A program made the translations under genes and the position numbers. Shown piece after piece: positions 41,470-48,670 of a DNA stretch of 64,000 nucleotides. The first letter of the stretch is position 1, and each line of letters begins with the position of its first letter. The notes under the pieces were generated by a model. The model was not told the DNA's origin. It worked only from the letters and a program-made list of their open reading frames with translations, and ran no database searches. Source of the stretch: Microcoleus vaginatus WJT46-NPBG5 (GTDB taxonomy: Bacteria > Cyanobacteriota > Cyanobacteriia > Cyanobacteriales > Oscillatoriaceae); assembly GCA_019359355.1 (NCBI GenBank), contig JAHHHM010000001.1:62001-126000 (forward strand), given 5' to 3'.

Positions 41470-41708
41470 CGTTCGGTTTGTATTCTTACACCAATTGTAG
41501 GAGTCTTGATGGGCGATTCTAGCTTCTAAGGGTTGAGTCCGGCTGATAACAGCGTTCTGCACTCGTTCCTCAATACTTTAAAGCGCCTTAAACTCGCCTG
41601 TAGGTTAGCACAGGTCTGAAGCGCTTGATCCGCGCATCGGCTTTCTCTAAGCGAATGATGTGTGAAACAACTGGGCTGTTCCTTTTACGCTGGGGAAACC
41701 GCTGTTTT

Positions 41709-42026
41709 TTAGGGTTTGAACCGGCGCACCACTGTTGAGCGACGCCGCCATGCCGTTTGGCCTAAACTCAAGAGGCCCAACACTTGCTCAGCCCGCTGAA
41801 GTTGTGTTTGCAGTTGCCGGTATTGTTTTCGCAGCTGGCGAGTACCCCGTTGTCCTGTGGTAATGGCCTTGGGTGCGCCATGTAGTACGGCATAAGTGTT
41901 GCGCTCAACTGAGATCAGTGTATCTGCGACATTGGCCAGCACCCGCCGCAAGTTCCACACTTGCCACGCCACATAAAGGCACAAGAGTGCGATGAGCGCA
42001 TTGACGATTAAAACGACTGTCAGCAT
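41709..42026 (-). CDS. Small membrane protein of unknown function, 105 aa
   Basis: A 105-residue protein: one N-terminal membrane helix (LTVVLIVNALIALLCLYVAWQVW), then a helical, basic segment (RKQYRQLQTQLQRAEQVLGLL) and an Arg-rich end (RRRSTVVRRFKP). I do not recognise a named family, but its form (one anchor plus a cytoplasmic coil) matches its two downstream neighbours, and all three are on the same strand in sequence. It could be part of the same small membrane-protein set. Confidence 0.65.
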   Translation of the reverse strand: MLTVVLIVNALIALLCLYVAWQVWNLRRVLANVADTLISVERNTYAVLHGAPKAITTGQRGTRQLRKQYRQLQTQLQRAEQVLGLLSLGQTAWRRRSTVVRRFKP

Positions 42027-42338
42027 TTCCCCCCTCTCGCGATTGACTTCTCTAGCTAAAGTTGCGGGTTATCCCTACATCGGCTTTGGCTCGATCATAC
42101 CTGTATAACCTAGGCGATGAGTATCTACGAGAAGGTGGATCTCCAAGCTGCGATTTGAATCAATTTAACGATTGCCAGTGCAGTTGCCGGTTTCAACCCA
42201 ACATCCAGAACAAACAAAGGTCGGCTTTCCACCCAACGTCTATGGCAAACTAACTTAAAGACACTGGAAAAATCTTAGTGGTGAACTCAGTCATAAAGCG
42301 TCCGAGCTTGAAAGGTGATACCTAGCTGACGCTATATT
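42027..42338. other. Gene-free stretch, nothing recognised
   Basis: This 312-base spacer separates divergent genes and should hold promoters for both. I see no strong consensus promoter, repeat or RNA. An open frame at 42062-42253 on the + strand has poor composition and no start signal. Confidence 0.4.
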
Positions 42339-43316
42339 GTGGATAAGTATTCCGCTAACGCTGAAGTTTTAAAGATCGCGATGAAAACGCTTATAACACT
42401 TTTTGACAAAGAACGCAGTGAACTCCAGAGAGATATAGATAAGGCAAGCAGCCTTGACCAAGTCGTAAAACTGGTTCAAAACCGGCTTGATAATCTAGAA
42501 AGAAGTTACATGGGTGATCTTAATGTCGCTCAGGTACGTCTGGCTTCCTTTTTTCTAGAAACCCTACGCCAGTCTGTTGCTGCTTTGAGTGCGGCTAATG
42601 AGGTTAAATTTTCTGTTCCACCAACTCAATCACTTTCTAACCAAGCTGCAAAGTTAGCTCCGAATAAATTAATTTTAAAAGTGCTACAGGCGCTTGCCGG
42701 CGCAGGAACTTTAACTTCCTTAATTTCCTTAATGCCGAATGATCCGCAAGTGTGGATGCCCACCTTATTGGTGTCGGTTGTCATTGGCTTAGAAGTTGCC
42801 CTTAAACTTGACAAAAAAACCAGCGTAAATAATTCAACGGTTCCTTTGCTTCCAGAAACGACGCTGCCGGTTGTTCGCGTTGATAGTCAAATTTTGTTAG
42901 GCAACCTTGCGGATGCTTTAAATACAATAGACCAAGCAGTCGCACGGACAACAGATGTTCAAAAAAACCCTGAATCTAATGGTTTAGAAGAACTGCCAGA
43001 ATTGTTAACGCTGATTCAAAGACTTTGGGGCGCGTCAGTCTTGAATAAACCCCAGATGGCAATTGAACTAACAAAAATGTTGCCCCAAGTTTTGATGGAA
43101 GAGGGAATCCGCGCTCAAATTTATCAGCCCCATGAGGCAAAAAATTCTCGTGAGTATTTTGATTTTGAGCCAAGCATTGATCCCGCAACTAAAGACTGCG
43201 TGACAATCACGCCGGCCTTATTTAAAGGTGACAGCTTGCTGCGGCGCGGTCGAGTGATTGAGCCGGCTAATCTCATTCCCCCACAAAGTGATCGTTATAA
43301 TGAAACTGTGCGGTGA
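42339..43316 (+). CDS. Membrane protein with a GrpE-like C-terminal tail, partner of the adjacent Hsp70-like ATPase
   Basis: A 325-residue protein with a GTG start. Residues 1-100 are helical (FDKERSELQRDIDKASSLDQVV). Two membrane helices form a hairpin at about 110-158 (LAGAGTLTSLISL, TLLVSVVIGLEVAL). Residues 185-275 are helical and soluble. The end (ITPALFKGDSLLRRGRVIEP) resembles the last strand of GrpE nucleotide-exchange factors, where a VLRPARV-type motif occurs. It is followed after 95 bases by an Hsp70-like gene in the same direction, which also carries a membrane hairpin. A membrane-bound exchange factor for that ATPase is a reasonable guess. The GrpE resemblance is short and unproven. 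Confidence 0.6.
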   Translation: MDKYSANAEVLKIAMKTLITLFDKERSELQRDIDKASSLDQVVKLVQNRLDNLERSYMGDLNVAQVRLASFFLETLRQSVAALSAANEVKFSVPPTQSLSNQAAKLAPNKLILKVLQALAGAGTLTSLISLMPNDPQVWMPTLLVSVVIGLEVALKLDKKTSVNNSTVPLLPETTLPVVRVDSQILLGNLADALNTIDQAVARTTDVQKNPESNGLEELPELLTLIQRLWGASVLNKPQMAIELTKMLPQVLMEEGIRAQIYQPHEAKNSREYFDFEPSIDPATKDCVTITPALFKGDSLLRRGRVIEPANLIPPQSDRYNETVR

Positions 43317-43411
43317 GCCGGCAGTCGCTTTAAGTCGGGAAATTAAAAAACAACATTAACACCCAGTCAGCCGAACCCGTTGAATTCAGGACTAAAATCT
43401 TTAGTAAAGTT

Positions 43412-45334
43412 ATGGAAATTTTAGAAACAATCGGTTTCGATCTGGGACATGGAGAAACAGCCGTTGCCAAAGCTGTAATCGAGAGCATTGAGCCTCCAGA
43501 AATGCTGGAAGTTAACAATAAAAAAAATCAAATTACTGCACTAGGTTGGCATCCTGAACTCGGCTATCTTGTGGGAGAGCAAGCCTTAATTCAAGTTGGG
43601 GTGACTCAACTTCAAATTGCTTTTAAGCAAAAACCTAATCAAAATGCAAATTATCGGGAAACCCTCAAAAGTTTCTTAAAAACTTATTACTCGCTTTTGA
43701 AAGAAAGCCGGCAAATTCAAGGCGAGAAAAACAGCTATTTTTATGTAGGTTGCCCTTCAGGTTGGTCACTAGAAGATCGTGAAGAGTATCAAAAGCTGCT
43801 TCAGGAAGCTGGAATTCCCCTCCTGAATGTGATCCCAGAATCACGAGCGGCTTTTATGCAAGCCAAGGAAGCCGGTAAACTTGAGTACAACAAGCTAACC
43901 TCATCGGTACTCATTGTTGATATTGGCTCTTCAACAACTGATTTTACCCTAGTGAAAAGCTTATCCGAAATCCCCATCGATTTTGGCAGTAATGAGCTGG
44001 GGGCTTCTCTGATTGACAAAGCAATTTTTGAACGCACGCTTGCCAATCACGAGCAAAAAGAATTACTTGAGAGAGTATTCGCTCAATATTCACATCACAA
44101 AGCTCGGTGTGAACTTGCCTGCCGCAAAGCGAAGGAAGATTATTTTTCTAACGAACAGCTTTACAGTTCCCCCCAATCTTTTGCACGCGGGTTTGAGTCG
44201 ATTAACGAACAAATTTATTTTATCCCCCAAGTCAATCAATCAATTATGGAGGAAATTTTAAACCACCCCTTAGTTGAATTAGGGAAAAAGAGTTGGATTC
44301 AATCATTTCGTGAAGCAGTCTCGGTGGCGAAAGAAAAGCTTGATAAACAAGGCATTACCCCGAAAGTCGTGCTAATGACAGGTGGGGCATCTCGCATGAA
44401 GTTTACCCGTCTTATTTGTGAAAAAACATTTCCCGAACCCGACACACAAGTTCGCCCTGATCCAGAACCTGAACGGTGCATTGCACTGGGTTTAGCGCGA
44501 GTGGGAAGATGGGATTTGCGAGCGGCTGCTTTCAAACAAGAAGTCAATGAATTGTTTGATTCAAATTTTTTCAAACATCTTATTGAAAAAAATCTGCCAA
44601 ATTTAATAGAATTATTGACCCATTCACTTTCAGATGAATTAATTAAATCCATCGTTAAAACTGGCTTAAAAGATTGGCAAAACAACAAAGTTCGGACTTT
44701 ATCTGATCTTGAAGGCTCTATGAAACAGCGAGCGGAGCAGTGGGTTAAAAGTAATGAAACGCAGGCTCTCATCAATAGCCAATGTCTCGCTTGGTTTAAT
44801 AGCAAAGTTCAGCCTGAGTTAGCCAATAAAACCGATCCGATTTGTCGAAAATTTCAGATTCCCAGAAGTAGTTTAAGGTTTGAAGAAGGGATCGCGCCGG
44901 CTGCGGTTAATCCGGAACTTCAGATCGGAGATGCAATTTTAGCTGAGATTGTGTCATTTATCATTAATGTGGTAATTGGCGGCGGCACGCTTGCTAGCCT
45001 CCTGACTTTAATTTTAACCGGACATTTAGCTTGGCCAATCGCCCTAGTTTATGGAGCTTCAGCTTTAGCCGCCGGCATGGAACTAAATCGTAAGGGTGTT
45101 AAAGATGTGATTAAAACAAATTTAGATGTTCCTGGGTGGATGCGTTCAAATTTGTTAAGTGACAGTAAAATTGACAGTATCTGCAAGGAAATCAATCCGG
45201 AGCTGGAGAAGGTTCTTAAAGAACAATTAGCGGCGAATCAGGAAACTTTTGATCAGTTAATGGAAAAAGTTGAACGAGGGCTAAAAGACGCTCTGAATGC
45301 AAAGATTCAAGAAGCGATAATTTTAATTCAATAA
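43412..45334 (+). CDS. Hsp70/actin-fold ATPase with C-terminal membrane hairpin
   Basis: A 640-residue protein. The nucleotide site of the Hsp70/actin superfamily is visible: phosphate loop 1 GFDLGHGETA (near 8-17), connect-1-like PESRAAFM, phosphate loop 2 VDIGSSTTDF (near 168-177) and adenosine loop MTGGASRM (near 322). There is no Hsp70 substrate-binding beta domain. Instead a helical region (370-500) leads to two membrane segments (about 515-560, VIGGGTLASLLTLIL and PIALVYGASALAAGMEL) and an amphipathic C-terminal helix (590-640). It probably works at the membrane as a chaperone-like or filament-forming ATPase. It follows the GrpE-tailed membrane protein and likely shares its transcript. 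Function unknown. Confidence 0.8.
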   Translation: MEILETIGFDLGHGETAVAKAVIESIEPPEMLEVNNKKNQITALGWHPELGYLVGEQALIQVGVTQLQIAFKQKPNQNANYRETLKSFLKTYYSLLKESRQIQGEKNSYFYVGCPSGWSLEDREEYQKLLQEAGIPLLNVIPESRAAFMQAKEAGKLEYNKLTSSVLIVDIGSSTTDFTLVKSLSEIPIDFGSNELGASLIDKAIFERTLANHEQKELLERVFAQYSHHKARCELACRKAKEDYFSNEQLYSSPQSFARGFESINEQIYFIPQVNQSIMEEILNHPLVELGKKSWIQSFREAVSVAKEKLDKQGITPKVVLMTGGASRMKFTRLICEKTFPEPDTQVRPDPEPERCIALGLARVGRWDLRAAAFKQEVNELFDSNFFKHLIEKNLPNLIELLTHSLSDELIKSIVKTGLKDWQNNKVRTLSDLEGSMKQRAEQWVKSNETQALINSQCLAWFNSKVQPELANKTDPICRKFQIPRSSLRFEEGIAPAAVNPELQIGDAILAEIVSFIINVVIGGGTLASLLTLILTGHLAWPIALVYGASALAAGMELNRKGVKDVIKTNLDVPGWMRSNLLSDSKIDSICKEINPELEKVLKEQLAANQETFDQLMEKVERGLKDALNAKIQEAIILIQ

Positions 45335-45541
45335 AAATAGTAATCTGTTAAATCAACGCCGGCACTTAGTTGAAGTGAAACGCCCGTCAAAGTGCTGGAG
45401 TTGAGATTTGACCCAAGCGTTGGATTGTTGAAAGAACCTTTGCTTGGTGGAATTATTATCGACGTTTAAGTAAGGACTATTAAGTGTTACCACAAATGAG
45501 TCAAGCCATGATTCATCTGATGTTACGTCGGTTAGGAAATA

Positions 45542-48500
45542 TCACTGAGCCTCACTAATTACTGAAGCTCCCCTGCCGTTCTCAGAAACTGGCTTAGCTT
45601 GCTTAGGAATCAAAACTTTCCCAAACTTGGCATATAACGCGGGTAACACTAGCAACGTTAATGCAGTAGAAGTAAACAATCCACCCAGCACTACTACTGA
45701 CAGTGGTTGCAGAATTTCCTTCCCTGGTCCACCCTCCACTACTAGAGGTGCCAAACCCAAAGCAGAAGTAAAAGCTGTCATCAGGATGGCATTGAGTCGT
45801 TCCATCGACCCTTCAATCAGGACTTCTTTAAAGGGCATCCCTTCAGCAAACTTAGTGTTGTAGTTATCCACTAAGAGCAGTCCATTGCGGGTAGCAACCC
45901 CAAACAAGGTAATAAAGCCAACTAGGGAGGCAATGGAAATAATGCCCCCAGTTAACGCGACAGCAATCACTCCCCCTACTAAAGCTAAAGGCAAATTAAT
46001 CATAATCGCGGCAGTAGAGGGGATGGATTTAACAGAAAGGTACATAATTATTGTAATGACTACAAAAGCAATTGCACTGGAGATTAAAATATTCTGAGTC
46101 GCTCGTTCTTCCGCCTCAAATTGACCCGCATACTGGATATAGTAACCAGACGGGAGCTGCACTTGTTGTCTAACTTTTTCTCTAATTTCATTCACTACAG
46201 AACGCAAATCTCTTCCCTTGGCATTGGCAGCCACAACAATCAGGCGGGAAACATTCTCGCGGTTGATGGTATTGGGACCAGTGCCGTTGTCAATCGTGGC
46301 AACTTGGGCTAAAGGAATCTTTTGACCGTTGGGAGTATCAACTAGCAAGTTCCGAATAGTGTCCAAGCTTTGACGGGCATCTGGTTTTAACCACACAACT
46401 AAATCAAAGGTTTGTTGCTTCTCCAAGACTTGAGATACCACCCGCCCATTAAGCGCAGTTTCAATAATTTCGGAAAGTTCTCCTACTGTCAAACCATACC
46501 TTGCTGCTGCGAAACGGTCAAAATTAATTTGTATTTGTTCAATTGGAACTTGGGGTTCGAGTTGCAGATCAACGATGCCTTCAATGGTTTTCATCACATC
46601 ATTAACTTGCTGCCCAATGGTGCGGAGTTGTTCTAAATCAGGACCAAAGATTTTGACGGCGATCGCACTCCTGACCCCAGACAGCACCTCATCCATTCGG
46701 TGAGAGATAAAACCACCGATATTAGGTGCTACCCCTGGTAATTTAGCAAACTCCTCTCGTAGGTGCTCAAGAGCCTTTTCCCTATCTTTCATTCCCTTTT
46801 CGCTCAACTCTATATCCAAATGTCCCAAGTTAACACCTGCGGCATCAGCATCCCCAGGCGCGCGTCCTGAGCGCAACTGCACATAGGGAAATCTGGCGTC
46901 ATCTTTGAGCGCGGCTTGAATAGCTTCCCCAGCGCTATTGGTAGCTTCCAGAGATACACCTGGATATAGCAGTAAGGTGTTCACTAAAGTTTGCTCCTGA
47001 AACTCAGGTAAAAACACCCGTCCTAATGAGGGAACAATGACAGTTGTCGCCACCAAACTAGCACCGGCTAAGCTCAAAACAATTCCAGAATAGCGCATTG
47101 AAAATGCTAAGAGAGGATAATAAATTCGCTTAAAAAATCTCGCCACCCACGGTTCTGTTTCGGGCAAGCGACCGTAAGGCAGTAAGATTGCACACAAAGC
47201 CGGCGTTATTGTCAGTGCAGTTACACTAGAAGCCAGAACTGCCACTATATAACCAATGCCCATCGGGATAAAGAGGCTACCTTCTACCCCAGCCAAGGCG
47301 AAAATTGGAGAGAACACAACTAGGGTAATGATGGTGGCTCCAAATACCGAGTCGCGCACTTCCTGACAGCCTTCAAAGACAACCTCCAGCACTGGCCGGG
47401 GGTTGGGAGAATATTTATTTTCCCGTAGGCAACGATAAACATTTTCAGCATCTACAATTGCGTCATCAACGGCTGAACCGATGGCGACGGCCAATCCTCC
47501 CAAAGTCATCGTATTTAAACCTTGTCCTAGCCAATTTAACGCCAGCACACCTAATAACAAAGACAACGGAAGGGCGGTTAGGCAAACAGCGAGGTTGCGC
47601 CAATTCATCAAGAAAGGGATCAGGATAATAGCAACGATAATACTGCCTTCAACTAAAGCCTCTCTAACATTCTCAATCGAAGAATCAATATAGTTTTCTT
47701 GCCGAAATGTAGCGATGACATTAATATCTTTAGGTAAGCCTAATTTGACCTCTGACATTGCTGCTTCAATTGCCCGGGTGACAGTAGGAGTATCGGCAAG
47801 AGGCTGTTTATTAATCATGACAATAATTGCCTTTTGACCGTTAAAGCTGCCATCGCCCCGTTTCAATTCTGCGCCGATTTGCACGTCAGCGACATCCGCT
47901 ATCTTGACAGGCGTGCCGGTGCGGGCTGTAATTACCGATTGTTGTAAGTCTTCGATGGATTCAATCCGCCCAATACCTCGGATTAACTTTTCTCGGTCAG
48001 AAGTGATTAAATAGCCACCCGGAGCATTGACATTTGCAGCAGACGCTGCCTCCACAACGTCTTTTAGGGAAACATTAAATGCTTTCAGCTTTTCTGGGTC
48101 AACTAATACTTGATACTGACGAACATCGCCGCCATACGCTACCACCTGACTAACGCCAGGAACAGCCAAGATGCGATTTGTCACTTGCCAATCAACAATA
48201 CGCCGCACTTCCATTAAGGGAGTTGTTTGGGAGGTGAAGGCATATTGAAGCACAGTGCCAATAGGAGAACTAATGGGAGAAATTTGCGGCGTTTCCACTC
48301 CGTCAGGCAGCTTACTTTGCGCTTGTTGCAATCGCTCCGTTACTAGCTGTCGAGCTTGATAAATATCAGTTCCCCAGTTAAAAATAACTTTAACAACGGA
48401 AATACCGGCTGCACTCGAAGACCGTACCGCTTGTACACCAGGAGTCCCGTTAATTGCACTCTCAATTGGTAAAGTTACCAGCGATTCCAATTCTTCGGGC

Positions 48501-48670
48501 GCAAGTCCAGGAGCTTCTGTTTGAATTTCGACTTGGGGCGGTGCGAAGTTGGGGAAGACATCCAGTGGCATCTGGATGATCGTGCGAAATATCCAGAAGG
48601 TGACGATAATCGCACCGAGAATGACTAGCCAGCGGCGGGAGATCGCCCACTTGATAATGGCACTAAGCAT
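45542..48670 (-). CDS. RND heavy-metal efflux transporter, CusA/CzcA/CopA type
   Basis: A 1042-residue inner-membrane proton-driven pump with twelve membrane segments in two halves. N-terminus MLSAIIKWAISRRWLVILG; the porter region contains DVFPNFAPPQVEIQTEAPGL. Membrane segment 4 has GSAVDDAIVDAENV, the acidic relay region of the heavy-metal (HME) branch. The second half ends with TLFGVATRNGLLLVDNY and LLVLPALYAKFG. The adaptor gene lies 79 bases upstream on the same strand and a DUF305 protein before that. The same trio (CopB, CopA and CopM-like) handles copper in Synechocystis, so copper or silver export is the best guess. I see only one GCCGGC in over 3 kb here, far fewer than in neighbouring genes, which could mean transfer from another lineage. 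Confidence 0.93.
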   Translation of the reverse strand: MLSAIIKWAISRRWLVILGAIIVTFWIFRTIIQMPLDVFPNFAPPQVEIQTEAPGLAPEELESLVTLPIESAINGTPGVQAVRSSSAAGISVVKVIFNWGTDIYQARQLVTERLQQAQSKLPDGVETPQISPISSPIGTVLQYAFTSQTTPLMEVRRIVDWQVTNRILAVPGVSQVVAYGGDVRQYQVLVDPEKLKAFNVSLKDVVEAASAANVNAPGGYLITSDREKLIRGIGRIESIEDLQQSVITARTGTPVKIADVADVQIGAELKRGDGSFNGQKAIIVMINKQPLADTPTVTRAIEAAMSEVKLGLPKDINVIATFRQENYIDSSIENVREALVEGSIIVAIILIPFLMNWRNLAVCLTALPLSLLLGVLALNWLGQGLNTMTLGGLAVAIGSAVDDAIVDAENVYRCLRENKYSPNPRPVLEVVFEGCQEVRDSVFGATIITLVVFSPIFALAGVEGSLFIPMGIGYIVAVLASSVTALTITPALCAILLPYGRLPETEPWVARFFKRIYYPLLAFSMRYSGIVLSLAGASLVATTVIVPSLGRVFLPEFQEQTLVNTLLLYPGVSLEATNSAGEAIQAALKDDARFPYVQLRSGRAPGDADAAGVNLGHLDIELSEKGMKDREKALEHLREEFAKLPGVAPNIGGFISHRMDEVLSGVRSAIAVKIFGPDLEQLRTIGQQVNDVMKTIEGIVDLQLEPQVPIEQIQINFDRFAAARYGLTVGELSEIIETALNGRVVSQVLEKQQTFDLVVWLKPDARQSLDTIRNLLVDTPNGQKIPLAQVATIDNGTGPNTINRENVSRLIVVAANAKGRDLRSVVNEIREKVRQQVQLPSGYYIQYAGQFEAEERATQNILISSAIAFVVITIIMYLSVKSIPSTAAIMINLPLALVGGVIAVALTGGIISIASLVGFITLFGVATRNGLLLVDNYNTKFAEGMPFKEVLIEGSMERLNAILMTAFTSALGLAPLVVEGGPGKEILQPLSVVVLGGLFTSTALTLLVLPALYAKFGKVLIPKQAKPVSENGRGASVISEAQ

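Follow-up and report, generated by a model that had tools for sequence, protein, structure and literature searches.

The locus and its conservation as a pair

The window (the whole stretch of 64,000 nucleotides that was analysed) carries two co-directional open reading frames on the + strand, at 42339-43316 (gene 1) and 43412-45334 (gene 2). Hydropathy analysis revealed hydrophobic hairpins in both products, and the two-gene membrane unit proposed in the preliminary description is supported. Gene 2 starts with ATG and encodes 640 amino acids. For gene 1, the GTG at 42339 probably lies 42 bases ahead of the true start, because the majority of relatives begin at the codon matching the ATG at 42381; these relatives support a gene of about 42381-43316 that encodes 311 amino acids, and its residues are numbered here from that ATG. 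The likely flanking genes, at 41709-42026 and 45542-48670, are both on the opposite strand, and the pair therefore stands alone. Compared with two copies from the same genus, dN/dS was 0.12-0.13 for gene 1 and about 0.07 for gene 2, and these low values indicate that both genes are real and constrained by purifying selection. An Rfam scan of 41500-46000 returned zero matches, and the scan for promoters and terminators gave counts near the chance expectation. In the one annotated record examined, both genes were named "hypothetical protein".

A survey of genome context for conserved pairing had been suggested, and our results bore the pairing out. Among 291 sampled genomes of the window's order, gene 2 or a relative was present in 50 and gene 1 in 50 (including genome G025, where gene 1 was found solely by the family profile); either gene was present in 51 genomes, and 49 of these held both. 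The co-occurrence has a hypergeometric p of ~2e-53 in a calculation that ignores the relatedness of the genomes. Gene 1 was located directly upstream of gene 2 on the same strand in 47 of the 49, the exceptions being G044, with the reversed order, and G224, with the two genes at the ends of different contigs. A long gene 2 relative without the hairpin occurs in G184, where no partner was found. In G267, a broken copy of gene 1 (L177, 424-1280, contig C336) was observed alone, with no gene 2. The second collection contained 80 loci, overlapping in species with the first sample, and the window was added to give 81. Both genes were found as called open reading frames in 79 of the 81 loci, and in each of these they share one direction and gene 1 comes first; the contig stops at that point in the remaining two; the commonest gap between the genes was 17 bases. 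No third gene was constant beside the pair in the loci of close relatives. The two genes are conserved as a unit.

In the phylum-wide sample of 386 genomes, matches were confined to the window's order, a result that holds at the level of this sample, and other phyla were covered solely by the close-relative pattern scan behind the second collection. In Calothrix brevissima, one copy of the pair lies on a conjugative plasmid with integrase genes nearby, and a Nostoc laboratory strain that is amenable to genetics also has the pair. A search of viral contigs did not find it. In a record labelled Candidatus Gracilibacteria (L135), gene 1 lies upstream of a gene 2 copy that shows 73% identity; this is probably a cyanobacterial contig placed in the wrong bin.

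The ATPase encoded by gene 2

The product of gene 2 had been described as an Hsp70-like ATPase, and structural comparison agreed with this view. Residues 1-365 (43412-44506, +) were delimited as an Hsp70-type nucleotide-binding domain in a model with a mean pLDDT of 69, in which residues 1-72 have low pLDDT. Residues 10-364 of the model aligned with Sse1 over 285 residues with a VIA-align Z of 17.7 and an rmsd of 3.7 Å, and with DnaK at a Z of about 17; Hsp70-type nucleotide-binding domains scored Z 15.5-17.7 among the best 50 matches listed, and Foldseek matched the model to an Hsp70-type domain at E 4e-9. Three motifs are located on the + strand of this region: the phosphate-1 motif GFDLGHGET (residues 8-16, 43433-43459), which is invariant in family alignment A2, and, from the family alignment, the phosphate-2 motif VLIVDIGSSTTDFTLV (residues 166-181, 43907-43954) and the adenosine motif KVVLMTGGASRM (residues 318-329, 44363-44398). 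D10, K72, E143, D170, D177, G324 and G325 were invariant across the 21 aligned members, and we take them to be the counterparts of the Hsp70 catalytic residues. As modelled, the fold of residues 10-364 is that of an Hsp70 nucleotide-binding domain.

Matches of the window protein to single sequence families were weak. Pfam HSP70 was not reported for it, but was matched by 5 of 21 close relatives (best E 3.8e-6), and two distant members passed the family cut-off of 20.6 bits with 29.4 and 23.4 bits. The window protein stayed under the cut-offs of the actin-like models as well, with 20 against 27.4 bits for ParM, 14.4 against 27.8 for an MreB-like model and 12.5 against 400 for MamK, while MreB_Mbl was matched by 14 of the 21 close relatives (best E 2e-7). 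Such matches are what a membrane-anchored actin-like filament ATPase of the MreB, ParM or MamK kind, with gene 1 encoding its adaptor, might produce. However, the best-ranked solved structures were Hsp70-type domains throughout, with Sse1 at the top, and we consider an actin-like filament very improbable.

Behind the ATPase domain, a helical segment (residues 366-503, 44507-44920, +) was modelled entirely as helix with pLDDT mostly of 73-89, followed by the membrane hairpin defined by hydropathy (residues 504-558, 44921-45085, +), where pLDDT is low, and by a second modelled helical segment (residues 559-640, 45086-45331, +). Over residues 366-640 as a whole the model is helix only and, the hairpin apart, most of it has pLDDT above 70; the hydrophobic block at about residues 505-555 was found in all 21 aligned members. 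We sought a beta-sandwich substrate-binding domain with a helical lid after residue 365 of the model and did not find one; since the model is purely helical from residue 366, the protein shows no sign of such a domain, as the preliminary description had also claimed. The model thus supports a helical hairpin module that replaces the substrate-binding domain. Because that domain was looked for and not found, we keep gene 2 apart from the canonical Hsp70 chaperones and regard it as a new form built on a known motor. It shares the fold of the nucleotide-binding domain with Hsp110/Sse1, which gave the best structural matches. In Hsp110, unlike in gene 2, a beta substrate-binding domain is present; Hsp110 is also a soluble protein and acts as an exchange factor in its own right.

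The partner encoded by gene 1 and its C-terminal tail

Gene 1 encodes an N-terminal helical part (residues 1-75, 42381-42605, +; AF2 pLDDT 78-89 for residues 1-70), a membrane hairpin (residues 97-141, 42669-42803, +) with hydrophobic stretches at residues 97-115 and 123-141 by hydropathy, middle helices (residues 165-243, 42873-43109, +) placed at 169-192, 206-220 and 224-240 in a low-confidence model, and a tail with a GrpE-like motif (residues 244-297, 43110-43271, +), which is the best-conserved part across distant members. At least two hydrophobic stretches were predicted by hydropathy in 27 of 29 members of the family. The general plan given earlier for both proteins, with a membrane hairpin set between a soluble N-terminal part and a C-terminal tail, was borne out; the accompanying term "Gly/Ala-rich" suits protein 2 and, for protein 1, its distant relatives, but the window's own protein 1 only loosely. 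Searches of the gene 1 product against Pfam, NCBIfam, PADLOC and PDB sequences matched no family. GrpE proteins have a long paired helix, a helical bundle and a beta domain at the C terminus; the AF2 model of the gene 1 product places helices before short strands, but has a mean pLDDT of 57 and about 35 in the tail. The model is too poor for interpretation, and the 18 matches of a fold search with it were all non-significant.

The partner had been said to end in a GrpE-like motif. By eye this stood, as FDFEPSIDP...PALFKGDSLLRRGRVIEP in the tail looks like FDPNLHE...RGYILGERVLRHAMVKV at the end of the genome's own GrpE; with curated profiles it did not, as the tail fails a standard profile search. 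Pfam GrpE (PF01025) was not among the families reported for the window protein, and a PDB sequence search with gene 1 returned no GrpE structure. PF01025 was also absent from the 25 most frequent of the 38 families matched by the 29 gene 1 members; therefore at most one of the 29 could match it, at E >0.1. We further compared profiles with profiles, using GrpE proteins from related genomes in 64 comparisons that included unrelated families and shuffled columns. Against the gene 1 profile, the combined GrpE set ranked first of 64 (P 0.012) and the canonical set second (P 0.032), both values uncorrected and with several variants tried, and the alignment put the C-terminal ends of gene 1 and GrpE in register. 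Four GrpE sets were compared in all, and the two smaller, GrpE-like ones did not stand out from the nulls, whereas other GrpE-like families matched canonical GrpE with 70-95% probability in the same kind of comparison. A GrpE domain in the tail is thus suggested by sequence comparison, not shown, and gene 1 is not assigned to the GrpE family.

The pattern of conservation gave a second line of evidence. When six distant relatives were compared with the window, the ATPase domain of gene 2 was 31-46% identical and the helical stalk parts 16-29%; for gene 1, the tail was 37-48% identical to five of the six and 17% to the sixth, against 20-32% for the other two soluble parts. The gene 1 tail and the gene 2 ATPase domain are the slowest-evolving parts, which is consistent with mutual contact, and we infer from the sequences that these two parts may touch. 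That gene 1 may serve as a dedicated exchange factor is a reasonable working hypothesis, founded on this conservation pattern and not on demonstrated homology.

The architecture of the two proteins also invites comparison with dynamins. The order of gene 2 (head, helical segment, membrane hairpin, helical segment) is that of a dynamin with a paddle, and the partner likewise has helices flanking its hairpin. The pair could then be a remodelling machine that works like the paired dynamins of bacteria, in which an Hsp70-type head takes the place of the GTPase, the hairpins act as paddles, and a hetero-oligomer bends, tethers or stabilises the membrane on ATP turnover, with the tail as an assembly element and not an exchange factor. 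The partner protein of one distant locus (L193) matched the PADLOC model LeoB at E 1.1e-5 across its hairpin region, and linkage to Hsp70 genes is described for some dynamins of cyanobacteria (PMC5827413). However, the LeoB match may reflect composition, and no dynamin or GTPase family of Pfam or NCBIfam was matched by either window protein. This arrangement is, in our judgement, unlikely. Taken by itself, the LeoB match was rejected as probably due to Gly-zipper composition, the same Gly-rich hairpin also matching unrelated Gly-zipper proteins.

Distant versions, known systems and the likely role of the pair

Six distant loci carry both genes (L172, L174, L192, L193, L194 and L195). In four of the six, a HerA/CedD-like ATPase gene directly follows gene 2 (L172, 2008-4734; L193, 6332-9055; L194, 4749-7460; L195, 6561-9266); its product has 902-909 residues and its own hydrophobic stretch in mid-protein, and is similar to CedD and HerA models. 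It resembles the HerA/CedD-like pump ATPases; however, close relatives do not consistently have it next to the pair, and a HerA protein sought in the window genome and two same-genus relatives gave no match. Gene 2 itself varies among these loci: in L172 (4774-8007) it encodes two tandem copies of the ATPase domain in 1078 amino acids, and in L174 (4441-7809) an HscA/DnaK-like domain (E 5e-41) is fused in front to give 1123 amino acids. The contig of L192 ends just past gene 2. The layout is not universal, because the L194 ATPase has no hairpin and its partner tail has diverged to 17% identity. A 185-amino-acid protein with several hydrophobic stretches is encoded between gene 1 and gene 2 in L193 (3623-4177). 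Elsewhere, a gene run at L207 (3-10144) contains a different HerA-like protein (1054 amino acids), a DnaK-like protein (493 amino acids, truncated where the stretch stops) and a protein starting like a J domain.

A further reading is that the pair is an ATP-driven membrane machine of a new class, that an Hsp70 motor without a clamp drives the hairpin stalk, that the partner is a highly diverged GrpE, and that in some lineages a HerA-type pump is coupled, so that the machine could open or reshape the membrane for transport; we judge this combination quite improbable. The HerA linkage also bears on a possible conflict module for phage defence or self-sensing, in which ATPase and partner would restrain an effector that damages membranes or pumps DNA and would let it go when infection occurs. 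Consistent with such a role are the patchy spread (both genes in 49 of the 291 genomes of the order), the plasmid copy near integrase genes, the pump ATPase of the distant versions, and the description, in GTPase-centred predicted conflict systems of multicellular bacteria, of Hsp70 and GrpE together with a further Hsp70 domain that has no peptide-binding domain (PMC7159879). Against it, the PADLOC models matched neither window protein, no gene for an effector or toxin is consistently found next to the pair, a HerA protein is unmatched in the window genome, and the viral contigs did not yield the pair. A conflict function is therefore, to our mind, rather doubtful.

The pair can be compared with several known systems. 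It is like Hsp70/DnaK with GrpE in the fold of the ATPase domain, in the catalytic residues and in being a two-protein set of ATPase and partner, and the gene 1 tail is similar to the GrpE terminus, both by eye and in the register of the alignment. GrpE binds DnaK at lobe IIB of the ATPase domain. It is different in having no beta-type substrate-binding domain, in carrying hairpins in both proteins, and in a partner that GrpE profiles do not recognise. The predicted conflict systems likewise encode a clamp-less Hsp70 domain with a GrpE gene; however, they are GTPase-cored and found mainly in actinobacteria and firmicutes, while the pair has no constant third gene (PMC7159879). In the "chaperone group" of cyanobacterial dynamin-like proteins, a gene with a DnaK domain lies downstream, so that here too a cyanobacterial Hsp70-type gene is linked to a membrane-acting protein (PMC5827413). 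Three further loci (L200, L201 and L202) encode an Hsp70 of 732-745 amino acids, a protein of 799-923 amino acids and a small GrpE, with a J-domain-like protein in two of them; they are probably the published chaperone group, with the protein of 799-923 amino acids as the putative dynamin. In loci resembling this group, unlike the pair, the Hsp70 has no hydrophobic hairpin and is followed by a true small GrpE, and the family profiles of the pair gave no match there. The predicted conflict systems and the chaperone group are the closest precedents, and neither has the layout of the pair. A literature search, with most subscription journals outside it, found no description of the pair, in accordance with the earlier remark that its author knew no named system of this layout.

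The explanation that we favour, tentatively and at a little below an even chance, is that the pair is a membrane-anchored Hsp70-type ATPase with a partner in the same membrane that controls its nucleotide exchange or active state in a GrpE-like way. On the motifs and the model, gene 2 would be a membrane-anchored, probably active ATPase in which a helical stalk bearing a membrane hairpin has apparently taken the place of the peptide-binding domain; binding and hydrolysing ATP would then move a membrane-seated helical module and not a peptide clamp. Gene 1 would be its dedicated partner: its C-terminal tail may dock on the ATPase domain and govern, much as GrpE does, nucleotide exchange or the active state. 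The machine would most likely use ATP to gate the way in which a complex or patch of the membrane is assembled, remodelled or quality-controlled.

Hsp70 motors are known for peptide handling. A conserved lineage whose clamp has given way to a membrane module, and which has a membrane partner dedicated to it, would demonstrate re-use of the Hsp70 ATP cycle for membrane-bound machinery, and the pair offers a compact two-gene system for testing Hsp70-driven machinery of this kind.
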